A stretch of 9,629 bases of DNA, from contig DFYJ01000002.1 of assembly GCA_002383325.1 (NCBI GenBank), positions 24,044 to 33,672 on the forward strand. The letters run 5' to 3'. The stretch is from Candidatus Aminicenantes bacterium UBA4085. GTDB lineage: Bacteria; Acidobacteriota; Aminicenantia; Aminicenantales; UBA4085. Position numbers and translations under genes: made by a program. Each line of letters starts with the position of its first letter. Position 1 is the first letter of the stretch. Below are positions 5,378 through 9,052 of this stretch, in pieces. A model generated the notes under the pieces. That model was not told where the DNA came from. It searched no databases and saw only the letters and a list, made by a program, of their open reading frames with translations.

Positions 5378-7426
5378 ATGAGAATCATCAAGACGACCTG
5401 CCTCGCCGTCCTGGCCCTGGCTTCCGCTGCCGCGGCCGGCCCTTCGCAGAAGACGGCGCTCTCAGCCAAGCACAAGGCCTGGCTCGAGGACGATGTCGCC
5501 CACATCATCACCCCCGTCGAGCGCGATGTGTTCAAGAAGCTGGAGTCGGACGCCGACCGCGAGGCCCTGATCGAGGAGTTCTGGCGGCAGCGCGACCCGA
5601 CCCCCGGCACGGACCGCAACGAGTTCAGGGACGAGCACTATCGCCGGCTGGCTTTCGCCGACAAGACCTTCTCGCGCGGCGTCCCGTTCCAGGGCCGCAA
5701 GACCGAGCGCGGCCGGATCTACATCGCCCTCGGCCCGCCGATCGACGTCCAAACCTTCATGTCCTCCGAGGCGGTGCCCATGGAGCTGTGGACGCTGGGG
5801 GGCCGAGCCGGACTCGGCCAGCGCTCCCTTGTCAAAATCCTGTTCTATCAACGAGGCGGGGGCGGCGATTACGTCATCTACAACCCGGCCGTCAACTCGC
5901 CCAAGGATCTTGTCCAGACGCCCCGCCGGGCGGCTGTGACGGAAGAGCATCCCCTGGACTGGGACGAGTGGGATGCGGGGGCGATTCTGGTTCTTCGGGA
6001 TCGCATGCTCCTTGACGTCATCGGCATGACCTTGGGCTACGAGAGGGGGGTGCTGCGCCAACAGGCCGCCATCATGCTGGCGGAGGTCCAAGCGACGCCG
6101 CAGCGGTTGGTCAAGGACGACTATGCCCTGGCCATTCTGGAGCACAAGCCGGTCGTCGAAGTCAGCTACTCGGTCAAGCTCATCGGCAACCGCACGGCGG
6201 TCGCCGTGCTGGAAGGACCGGGCGGCGTTTCGTTCCTCCACTTCGTCCTGGCCCCCGAGACGATCTCGATGGAACGCTTCGGGGACCGCTATCTGACCGA
6301 TCTGCGGACGACGCTGCGGCTGTCGGACGTTTCGGGGCGGACGGTCTTCCAGCGGGAGAGGTCCGTCTCCGTCGATCTGCGACCCGAGGAGCTGAAGCGG
6401 CTGCGCGAAAGCTCCTTCCAGCTCTACGACGCCGTGCCCGTCCTGCCGGGCCGGTGGACGATGTCGCTGCTCCTGGAGAATCTGGTGACCAAGGAGTTCA
6501 CCACGGTGGAGAAAGCGGTCGAAGTGCCGGAGCCCGGCGGAACGGCCTTGAGCCCGCTCATCCTGGCCCGCCAGGTCTTCCGTGAGGCTTCGGCCGGGGG
6601 GGCCATGCGCTCCTTCCAAGTCGGTCGGGTCCAGATCTATCCCTCGGTCAACAACGTCTTTCCGGAGAAGTCGAGATTCCATGCCTTCCTGCAGATTCGC
6701 GGCCTGAAGGAGGACCTGCGGGAGAGGGGCCGCCTGCGCTTCATCCTGACCGGGGACGGAGTGCCGCTGTGGAGCGTCGAGCGGGCTCTTAAGGACTACT
6801 CGGAACCGGGGGTCGTTCTGGAGGAGATTGCGGCCGACAAGCTGGCCGCTGCGACTTACACCATGCGGGCCGGCCTCCTGGACCCTGAAGGCCGGGAGAT
6901 CATGGCCTCCCAGACGGACCTGCGTCTGACCACGGATCGCGTACGGGGACTCTGGGTTTCGGCCCAGCCGCTGCCGGCTGCGGATGATCCGGAGATCGAC
7001 TATGCCCTGGGGATGCAGGCTTTGAACATCGGCCGGACCGACGGGGCGGTGCTGTCGCTGGCCAAGGCCGCGGCGGCGAAGCCGGAGAACGCCGGCTACG
7101 CGCTCGGCTATGCCAAGGCGCTGCTGACGGCCGGCGGCGCGGCCAAGGCGCGAGACGTCCTCCTGCCTCATGCCGAGGCCAAGGAGGCGGGCTTCGACCT
7201 GTTCGAGACGCTGGGCCGCGCCTTTTACGCGGCGGGCCAGCCGAGGGAAGCGGTAGCGTGGCTCAAGCGGGCGCTGTCGCTGCGCGGCAACGTGGTCGAG
7301 ATCTTGAACCTGCTGGGCCAAGGCCACGCCGATCTTGGTGAAAAGGCCGCCGCGGCCGCCGCCTGGAGGAAGTCGCTGGAGATCATGCCCGACCAGCCGC
7401 GGATCAAGGCGCTGGTGAACAAATAG
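5378..7426 (+). CDS. GWxTD-domain protein with C-terminal TPR repeats, 682 aa
   Basis: A signal peptide (MRIIKTTCLAVLALASAAAA, cleavage near AAAG-PS) is followed by a GWxTD domain (about 32-170). Its hallmark pieces are all visible: ITPVERDVFKKLESDADRE, the EEFWRQRDPTPGTDRNEF stretch (67-83), EHYRRLAFADKTFSRG and RGRIYIALGPP (111-121). The eponymous Gly-Trp-x-Thr-Asp is degenerate here: GRKTE (106-110). A long beta-rich middle region (about 210-530) has no recognised motif. The last 145 residues (from about 537) are helical with TPR-like repeats (ALGMQALNIGRTDGAV, ALGYAKALLTAGGAAKA, LFETLGRAFYAAGQPREAV, ILNLLGQGHADLGEKAAA). GWxTD proteins are common in Acidobacteriota and Aminicenantes and have no firmly known function. 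An exported, TPR-bearing protein suggests a periplasmic scaffold. It is co-transcribed with the beta-barrel gene 10 nt upstream, with GGGGA as a weak ribosome binding site. Confidence 0.9.
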   Translation: MRIIKTTCLAVLALASAAAAGPSQKTALSAKHKAWLEDDVAHIITPVERDVFKKLESDADREALIEEFWRQRDPTPGTDRNEFRDEHYRRLAFADKTFSRGVPFQGRKTERGRIYIALGPPIDVQTFMSSEAVPMELWTLGGRAGLGQRSLVKILFYQRGGGGDYVIYNPAVNSPKDLVQTPRRAAVTEEHPLDWDEWDAGAILVLRDRMLLDVIGMTLGYERGVLRQQAAIMLAEVQATPQRLVKDDYALAILEHKPVVEVSYSVKLIGNRTAVAVLEGPGGVSFLHFVLAPETISMERFGDRYLTDLRTTLRLSDVSGRTVFQRERSVSVDLRPEELKRLRESSFQLYDAVPVLPGRWTMSLLLENLVTKEFTTVEKAVEVPEPGGTALSPLILARQVFREASAGGAMRSFQVGRVQIYPSVNNVFPEKSRFHAFLQIRGLKEDLRERGRLRFILTGDGVPLWSVERALKDYSEPGVVLEEIAADKLAAATYTMRAGLLDPEGREIMASQTDLRLTTDRVRGLWVSAQPLPAADDPEIDYALGMQALNIGRTDGAVLSLAKAAAAKPENAGYALGYAKALLTAGGAAKARDVLLPHAEAKEAGFDLFETLGRAFYAAGQPREAVAWLKRALSLRGNVVEILNLLGQGHADLGEKAAAAAAWRKSLEIMPDQPRIKALVNK

Positions 7427-7535: not shown

Positions 7536-7554
7536 AGGGAGCCACGGAGCATTC

Positions 7555-8376
7555 ATGGACAGAAAAGACGCCTCGGAGATCTCCCACTTTTCGGATTATC
7601 TCAAGCCCGCCCAAGTCATCCACGACCTCAAATCCAAGGACAAGGTCCAAGCCATCGAGGAGCTCCTCGATGTCCTTTCCAAGCAGAAGCTCATCGCCAA
7701 CAAGAAGGTTCTGCTGACCCGGCTGATCGATCGCGAGAACCTCCTCTCGACAGCGCTGGGCGACGGCATCGCCGTCCCGCACGCCCGGGTCGACACCGGC
7801 GGCGATATGGCCATCGCCGCCGGCCGATCCGCGGCGGGACTGGACTTCGAGGCCGGGGACAAGAAGAAAGTCCACCTGATCATCCTGATCATCTGGAATC
7901 CCAGCCTGCCCGGCCTGTTCAACCATCTCTTCGCCGGCTTGGCCAACTTCCTGCGCAAGCCCGAGTTCCGCGAGCGGATCTTCAAGGCCGCCGACAAGAA
8001 CGATCTCTACGCGGCCCTGTCCGAGATCGAGCTGCGCCTGCCCCAGGAGGACAAGATCGTCAGCCGGGCCGGGCTGCTGAAGAAGCTGCAGGAAATCGAG
8101 ATGAAGAAGCGCAAGGCGGCCAAGGCCCAGGCCAAAACCCTGTCCGGCCAAGCCGCCCTGATCCGCGAGGAGTTGGACGAAGCCCTGCTCGTCCGCTTCG
8201 ACAAGCTCATCGAGCGCTACGGCTTCGCCGTGGCCGAGGTGGACGAGGGCGTTTGCCAGGGCTGCTACATCAGCGTCTCGACCGAGATGAGCTCGGCCAT
8301 CGAGGGCAGCAACGACATCTACGTCTGCGAGAACTGCGGCAAATACCTGGTTGCCGCCAAGCGTAAGAAGAAATAA
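7555..8376 (+). CDS. PTS EIIA (type 2, PtsN/EIIA-Fru-like) domain fused to C4 zinc ribbon, 273 aa
   Basis: Residues 12-160 form a PTS EIIA type-2 domain: helix YLKPAQVIHDLKSKDKVQAI, then RLIDRENLLSTALGDGIAVPHARVD with the phosphorylatable His76, then VHLIILIIWNPSLPGLFNHL and LANFLRKPEFRERIFKAADKNDLYAAL. Residues 165-225 are a charged helical, possibly coiled-coil linker (KKLQEIEMKKRKAAKAQAK). Residues 205-266 match the C4 zinc ribbon of COG1579/PF02591-type proteins: LLVRFDKLIERYGFAVAEVDEGVCQGC...VCENCGKYLV, with Cys234, Cys237, Cys258 and Cys261. EIIA domains receive phosphate from HPr and pass it to EIIB, or act as sensors as PtsN does. The ribbon is thought to bind nucleic acid or protein. 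No HPr, EI, EIIB or EIIC gene is nearby, so a regulatory role is more likely than sugar uptake. ATG 7555 is chosen for its GGAG 5 nt upstream and because an upstream TTG falls in the -35 box. Confidence 0.9.
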   Translation: MDRKDASEISHFSDYLKPAQVIHDLKSKDKVQAIEELLDVLSKQKLIANKKVLLTRLIDRENLLSTALGDGIAVPHARVDTGGDMAIAAGRSAAGLDFEAGDKKKVHLIILIIWNPSLPGLFNHLFAGLANFLRKPEFRERIFKAADKNDLYAALSEIELRLPQEDKIVSRAGLLKKLQEIEMKKRKAAKAQAKTLSGQAALIREELDEALLVRFDKLIERYGFAVAEVDEGVCQGCYISVSTEMSSAIEGSNDIYVCENCGKYLVAAKRKKK

Positions 8377-8476: not shown

Positions 8477-9052
8477 ATGAACAAGAGGATCGCGGTCCTG
8501 GTCCTGGGCTTGGCGCTGTTGGGGGCTGGATGCACCAGCTACTACACCCTCATCCAAGAAACGCCCCCGAGCGCAGCCTTGAATTCCTTCGCCACGCTGA
8601 GCTTCGGCTGGATCGATTTCGGGGAGGACAAGGCCAAGCTCTACGGCTTCGAAGGTCAGGAAACCGGCAAGTGGATGGAGCTCATCAAGGAAGTCAATCA
8701 AAAGGCCTTTCCGCAATACCTCAAGGAACTCCTTCCCGGGAAAACCGTTCTCGGCGCGGCCTCGAAGTCCGAGCCGCCGAAGAAGGAAGGCTTGATCGTG
8801 GTCTTCTCGGACATCAGCTACAATCAGCGGACGAGCTCGGCGGCCCAGATCATGTTCGGAGCGTCGGCGGGCTCCGATTCGCTCGATGCCACCGTTCACT
8901 TCATCGATGCGGCATCGGGGCAGGAGCTGGCGGTGTCCAAGATCAGTCTTACCACCCAGGCCGGGACGGCCTACTCCCAATACACCTTCGAAGGACGCTT
9001 CAATAACGCGGTCTACAATCTCGCCCGCTTCATCTCCGAAAAAGTTCAATAG
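8477..9052 (+). CDS. Small lipoprotein, DUF4410-like in its C-terminal half, 191 aa
   Basis: The N-terminus MNKRIAVLVLGLALLGAGC is a typical lipoprotein signal, with lipidated Cys19. The mature protein begins with a TSYYTLIQETPPSAAL linker. It continues with a strand, the helix KWMELIKEVNQKAFPQYLKE (65-84), and the strand EGLIVVFSDISYN (104-116). A small-residue segment AQIMFGASAGSDSL (123-136) follows, then DATVHFIDAASGQELAVSKI (137-156) and a final helix NNAVYNLARFISEKV. This order (strand, glycine/alanine-rich turn, a strand with D-x-x-S-G-x-E-L, terminal helix) resembles the DUF4410 group of outer-membrane-associated lipoproteins, but I could not verify it. No activity can be assigned. 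It has its own promoter and ends facing the convergent M14 gene. Confidence 0.85.
   Translation: MNKRIAVLVLGLALLGAGCTSYYTLIQETPPSAALNSFATLSFGWIDFGEDKAKLYGFEGQETGKWMELIKEVNQKAFPQYLKELLPGKTVLGAASKSEPPKKEGLIVVFSDISYNQRTSSAAQIMFGASAGSDSLDATVHFIDAASGQELAVSKISLTTQAGTAYSQYTFEGRFNNAVYNLARFISEKVQ

Follow-up and report, generated by a model that had tools for sequence, protein, structure and literature searches.

An EIIA domain joined to a COG1579-type zinc ribbon in a conserved protein of Candidatus Aminicenantes

The window studied here, a stretch of 9,629 nucleotides of contig DFYJ01000002.1 from Candidatus Aminicenantes bacterium UBA4085, contains at positions 7555 to 8376 a gene whose product joins a type 2 EIIA domain of the phosphotransferase system (PTS) to a C4 zinc ribbon of the COG1579 type. 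A preliminary description, made from the sequence alone, had placed both domains in one frame of 273 residues, and this is borne out by the open reading frame, by Pfam and by sequence matches in the PDB. The gene and its parts are the following.

7555..8376, + strand: EIIA-zinc-ribbon fusion gene, 273 aa (open reading frame with ATG at 7555; 651 homologues; fusion matched in 85 of the order's 94 genomes)
7546..7549, + strand: likely ribosome-binding site GGAG, 5 nt before the ATG at 7555 (sequence reading)
7597..8025, + strand: PTS EIIA-2 domain, residues 15-157 (PTS_EIIA_2 of Pfam)
7780..7782, + strand: His76 in AVPHAR, predicted phosphorylation site (His in all 53 rows; pairs in the alignment with the first His of 4gqx and 2a0j)
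8053..8229, + strand: short helical stem, residues 167-225, with predicted helices at 171-187, 190-206 and 209-222 (AlphaFold model; aligned inside the FlgZ/CT398 hairpin)
8230..8355, + strand: C4 zinc ribbon, residues 226-267 (PF02591 region 233-265)
8254..8265, + strand: first CxxC, Cys234 and Cys237 (Cys in all 53 rows and in 52 of them, respectively)
8326..8337, + strand: second CxxC, Cys258 and Cys261 (C in 52 of 53 rows each)
8356..8373, + strand: lysine-rich tail, residues 268-273 (net charge of at least +3 in 38 of 51 fusion tails)

Conservation of the fused gene

The protein search gave the 651 homologues at E <= 0.001, and the 120 listed of these cover 95-100% of the query at 68-96% identity, with both Pfam labels on 111 and PF00359 alone on the other 9. 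The scan of genomes gave 53 loci, namely 52 with the fusion (62-90% identical) and L053, a distant EIIA without the ribbon that was left out of the row counts, so that the 53 rows are the window plus 52 loci; L002 and L050 are cut at contig ends and L052 is gapped. Most of the loci records are assigned to Candidatus Aminicenantes, Saccharicenans or Acidobacteriota, with L007 listed under Clostridiales and L048 as an uncultured bacterium. The window probably belongs to the order of these Aminicenantes relatives, as identities reaching 96% suggest. The four ribbon cysteines had been described as complete in the window and are kept in the relatives, Cys234 in all rows and Cys237, Cys258 and Cys261 in all rows except one, where the residue is X; this row is probably that of L052, where the contig is interrupted by Ns at this place. 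On average the commonest residue makes up a share of 0.76 in residues 15-157, 0.70 in 158-206, 0.80 in 207-232 and 0.83 in 233-265, and the ribbon is the best-kept part of the fusion.

A survey of the architecture, as had been suggested, found a fusion match in 85 of the 94 genomes of the order of G001 (5 of the 85 cut by a contig end or gap), in 68 of 119 genomes of the class and in 27 of 396 genomes of the phylum, the three samples overlapping, and 9 of the 94 have no fusion match at E <= 1e-40. The full-length matches in the phylum scan have E 4e-134 or better, and the next match, at 1e-33, is to EIIA only. A chance or assembly join is ruled out by the homologues, the invariant key residues and the 85 of 94 genomes. 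Homologues in close relatives splitting into separate genes, which had been named as evidence against the fusion, were not found as real cases, since the one split gene, in G438, is broken at a scaffold gap of 100 N. The fusions of G429, G459, G485 and G487 end at contig ends, that of G485 too early for the ribbon to show. In the 119 class genomes the listed matches of the ribbon profile are fused copies and stand-alone COG1579 proteins, and no separate gene with a ribbon of the fused type was seen among them besides the pieces in G438 and G429; three stand-alone ribbon matches, in G469, G456 and G437, sit in frames of 166-200 aa. Two short stand-alone ribbons, P0285 and P0288 with 114 and 111 residues, match the fused module.

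EIIA domains in other fusions are known, as are COG1579 ribbons; the pairing of the two was unfamiliar in the preliminary description, and no description of it was found in the literature searched, where supplements were not searchable. Of 349 DUF164 proteins all but three are of the coiled-coil form and lack any further defined domain, and of the three exceptions only a NIF3 fusion is named, which leaves the nature of the remaining two unspecified (PMC3372290). The Wolinella protein WS2117 (DUF164-NIF3) is similar in that its DUF164 ribbon is joined to another domain, but that domain is NIF3 and not EIIA (PMC3372290). The words "fused", "fusion" and "zinc" do not occur in the available main text of a 2026 review of the nitrogen-related PTS (PTS-Ntr; PMC13104625), nor does "EIIA" in the available part of PMC8469502.

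The EIIA domain and the zinc ribbon

The EIIA half matches PTS_EIIA_2 (PF00359) at residues 15-157 with 92.8 bits against a cut-off of 27, and its best-fitting sequence in the PDB comparison is PtsN (4gqx, E 2e-10). His76 lies in the phospho-acceptor motif PH[AG]R of PtsN (EIIA-Ntr), and both His76 and Arg60 are invariant in the alignment of the fusions. The domain had been called intact, which is correct for these two residues but not for the second active-site position, where the fusion has Phe122 (Phe in 38 of 38 fusions) and classical PtsN a His. This His is also missing in 12 PtsN-like proteins of Aminicenantes, with Asn in 9 and Gly in 3; eleven of them are encoded beside HPr and one, L134, was placed by similarity. 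The EIIA domain of the fusion is closest to the PtsN type. Compared to PtsN (1a6j, 4gqx, 2a0j) the fusion has an extra ribbon domain, the gene is located outside the rpoN operon, the second His is replaced, and the score of 59.7 bits with the NCBIfam PtsN equivalog TIGR01419 is under the cut-off of 138.7. Among the NCBIfam models fruA fits best, with 67.5 bits against a cut-off of 103.5, as might be expected of an ordinary transport EIIA whose permease is encoded elsewhere and whose ribbon is incidental, a role that we regard as highly improbable. No EIIB or EIIC had been noted nearby and none is found in the nine window proteins scanned, the genomes not having been searched for them.

In the domain search of the ribbon half, Zn_ribbon_9 (PF02591) gives 27.6 bits at residues 233-265 of the window copy, slightly below the cut-off of 29.1, yet the fused copy passes this cut-off in 13 of 14 relatives' genomes. 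Residues 179-265 match CT398 (4ilo, E 2e-4) in the PDB, and the ribbon half corresponds to the hairpin base and ribbon fold of FlgZ (HP0958) and CT398, minus the distal coiled-coil arm. The CT398_CC model (PF24481) has no match in the fusion at E <= 0.1 but matches the one stand-alone paralogue scanned, that of L104, with 37.9 bits, and with CdsZ (NF047363) the fusion reaches 15 bits, under the NCBIfam cut-off of 275. The COG1579 (DUF164) proteins FlgZ (3na7), CT398 (4ilo) and MSMEG_4306 (5y05) have about 235 residues, compared to about 105 in the fusion, where the distal arms are missing and the module is joined to EIIA. The paralogue in L104 adjoins genes reading as rpoD and dnaG, whereas the fusion does not, and the stand-alone COG1579 gene of G002 likewise follows genes reading as dnaG and rpoD (by eye). 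The lysine tail is a further difference, its net charge being at least +3 in the fusions counted above but in 0 of 13 stand-alone COG1579 proteins, with two rows dropped from the count for cut ribbons.

Phosphorelay, rpoN operon and gene neighbourhood in the relatives

The gene content of the cell described here comes from relatives' genomes and not from the window's own genome, and nearly all are draft assemblies. The presence of HPr, enzyme I (EI) and HPr kinase (HprK), which had been pointed out as worth checking, is confirmed, with HPr and EI in 14 of 14 genomes and HprK in 8 of 8, two of these belonging to the 14; the HPr motifs GLHARA and GKSILG are kept in the two sequences read. All 14 genomes also have one copy of sigma-54 and two to four EIIA-2 matches, and 13 of them a stand-alone COG1579 protein. 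Frames of 841-851 residues with EIIA-2, HPr and EI N-terminal matches were seen in 5 of the 14 genomes (L060, L061, L063, L064, L065), and G010 has HPr and EI in a frame of 605 residues and EIIA in one of 284 residues on a different contig.

No rpoN is present among the window proteins scanned, and in the relatives the rpoN operon is located elsewhere. In the Aminicenantes genome G002 the gene order is lptB-rpoN-hpf-ptsN-hprK-rapZ-EIIAman-HPr-EI, with names given by Pfam and for lptB by eye. Seven further operons were compared by BLAST, and ptsN is kept in L103, L107, L115, L116 and L117 and missing in L150 (G328) and L151 (G459), as it is in operon L162 (G457). These three lack ptsN between hpf and hprK and keep the other compared genes, including hprK, rapZ, EIIA-man, HPr and EI. 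A tblastn search with 11 PtsN proteins gave only two short chance matches on them (E 0.29 and 0.50), and the same search found ptsN in the controls L103 and L115. The genomes without ptsN are those of loci L001 (G328), L002 (G459) and L005 (G457), with fusions 90, 83 and 77% identical to that of the window, and the genomes of L003, L004 and L006, with fusions 78, 78 and 75% identical, keep an EIIA-2 match just before HprK; of the six nearest relatives, three have accordingly lost ptsN from this operon, and the other three have not.

Among the 13 draft genomes searched for EIIA-2 the fusion is the sole PF00359 match in G457 and in G491, the latter only 2.1 Mb in size. G459 has three EIIA-2 matches besides the fusion and G328 one, at the end of a 548-residue KdpD-like protein (L163, 1837-3483, - strand) which with its KdpD N-terminal part, Usp domain (by eye) and terminal EIIA-2 is another unusual EIIA fusion. 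In relatives without ptsN the fusion is probably the PtsN of the cell, equipped with a built-in output domain. The regulatory rather than transport role that had been favoured from the start is supported by the presence in 85 of 94 genomes, by HPr, EI, sigma-54 and HprK, and by the missing ptsN in three of six relatives.

The counts of neighbouring genes are lower bounds, with loci cut at contig ends. A 553-residue protein (M28-like by eye) is found upstream of the fusion in at least 25 of 53 loci and a PfkB kinase (Pfam) in at least 14, a convergent M14-like peptidase (by eye) in at least 37, and within about 6 kb in at least 43 a small RF-1 domain protein (Pfam; median 141 aa, with GGQ; for example L019, 3297-3725), possibly a ribosome-rescue factor. 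In the window a protein with a GWxTD domain and TPR (5378-7426) is located just upstream and adjoins the fusion in 1 of 53 loci only, and a small lipoprotein-like frame (8477-9052), in which DUF4410 matches weakly (25.2 bits, against 26), follows downstream. No Rfam family at gathering cut-offs and no tRNA gene was found in the window.

A mirror-order family and the possible role of the fusion

A second family (L132, P0121-P0240) carries the modules in reverse order, ribbon-EIIA, with the Cys and His motifs kept. Both modules, a similar short stem and an aromatic residue at the second active-site position are shared with the fusion; the family differs in domain order, in being found mostly outside the phylum of the window (2 of 396 genomes there) and in adjoining a ClC channel gene in two contexts. 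These two, G083 and G103, belong to one phylum, and the gene either overlaps the preceding channel gene by 4 nt or starts 11 nt after it; the channel gene directly 5' of it is at 287-3363 in L136 (Voltage_CLC, CBS and TrkA_C) and at 3243-6214 in L137. The EIIA domains of both families group with L135 at 94/94, on long branches, and a strict union of the two is not rejected (approximately unbiased test, p 0.184). The two ribbon modules are mutually closer (E 9e-18, 94 columns) than either is to a set of 13 stand-alone proteins, where the values are 6e-9 for 51 columns and 1e-14 for 87 columns. The two families may stem from two independent fusions, or from one that was reordered. No relatives of the mirror family were found in viral contigs, and among plasmids the only match was a single piece that covers 31% of the query at 31% identity.

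The aromatic residue common to both families, together with the low score with the PtsN model, would suit an EIIA domain that is a non-phosphorylated binding scaffold beside a structural zinc ribbon. This is unlikely, as His76 and Arg60 are invariant, G457 and G491 have no other EIIA-2 match, and G457 keeps HprK, HPr and EI, though EIIA-man remains there as an acceptor. The channel gene next to the mirror family points to ion transport, where the fusion might act like unphosphorylated PtsN, which in E. coli regulates the K+/H+ antiporter YcgO (PMC11808508), with the ribbon only as a docking module. The domains of the one channel scanned and a membrane pyrophosphatase-like protein (by eye, cluster 26), encoded some 3.4 kb upstream of the gene in 10 of the 53 fusion loci, are in line with this, but the ten neighbour clusters read for the Aminicenantes fusion include no recognisable channel gene, and the mirror contexts are only two from one phylum. 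Such a function is quite improbable.

That an EIIA domain and a FlgZ-type ribbon are covalently joined in a conserved way, and in both of two mirror orders, is good evidence from gene fusion for a joint action of the two. FlgZ stabilises and protects RpoN and requires its ribbon cysteines (PMC3372290), HP0958 binds flaA mRNA and CT398 is found in complex with RpoN and core RNA polymerase (PMC5947703), and for Desulfovibrio DVU1455 a partnership with Pnp was observed (PMC3125180). BB0713 has RNA strand annealing and displacement activity and sediments with RNA polymerase subunits. Because of these reported activities of COG1579 proteins, RNA or RNA polymerase is the likeliest target. The fusion may well be a phosphorylation-controlled switch, a reading to which we lean tentatively, in which HPr would phosphorylate His76 of the EIIA domain and the phosphorylation would alter the activity of the ribbon, a mini-FlgZ, and thereby its binding to RNA or RNA polymerase holoenzyme. 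The mechanism is put forward as a hypothesis with good comparative backing.

A rival reading would make the fusion a regulator of sigma-54, where the mini-FlgZ half stabilises or restrains RpoN and His76 reports the state of the PTS. The single sigma-54 in 14 of 14 genomes, the PTS-Ntr genes within the rpoN operon and the RpoN contacts of FlgZ and CT398 agree with this, but CT398 is reported to bind RpoN through the coiled coil only (PMC5947703), the distal arm of which is absent from the fusion, CT398_CC matching the stand-alone paralogue and not the fusion. A stand-alone COG1579 copy in 13 of 14 genomes could moreover do the job, and before the fusion gene 0 sigma-54 promoter matches were found against 1.2 expected, which is hardly informative. 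Such a role is doubtful.

Several observations weigh against the phosphorylation-controlled switch and the replacement of PtsN as well. Without the distal arm the contact of FlgZ with RpoN is unlikely to be simply copied, Phe122 replaces the second active-site His, and the channel genes of the mirror family point elsewhere. The lysine tail fits nucleic-acid contact, but the near-neutral ribbon does not, residues 226-273 of the window having a net charge of -1, unlike a strong RNA binder. No stable partner gene stands beside the fusion across the 53 loci. The EIIA-2 match kept beside HprK in the genomes of L003, L004 and L006 indicates that replacement of PtsN is not general, and the absences are provisional because nearly all genomes are drafts.

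A wider and speculative proposal, to which we give little weight, is that the pair of EIIA and mini-FlgZ serves the nitrogen PTS as an output device, made in two mirror orders, which has replaced PtsN in part of the lineage of the window and forms a physical connection between the phosphorelay and the RNA polymerase, sigma-54 or RNA machinery. If true, it would give the link long suspected from the position of ptsN in the rpoN operon. The fusion offers a test of function for the COG1579 proteins, a widespread family whose role is poorly known, as one small protein in which phosphorylation and the binding of RNA or RNA polymerase could be measured together.
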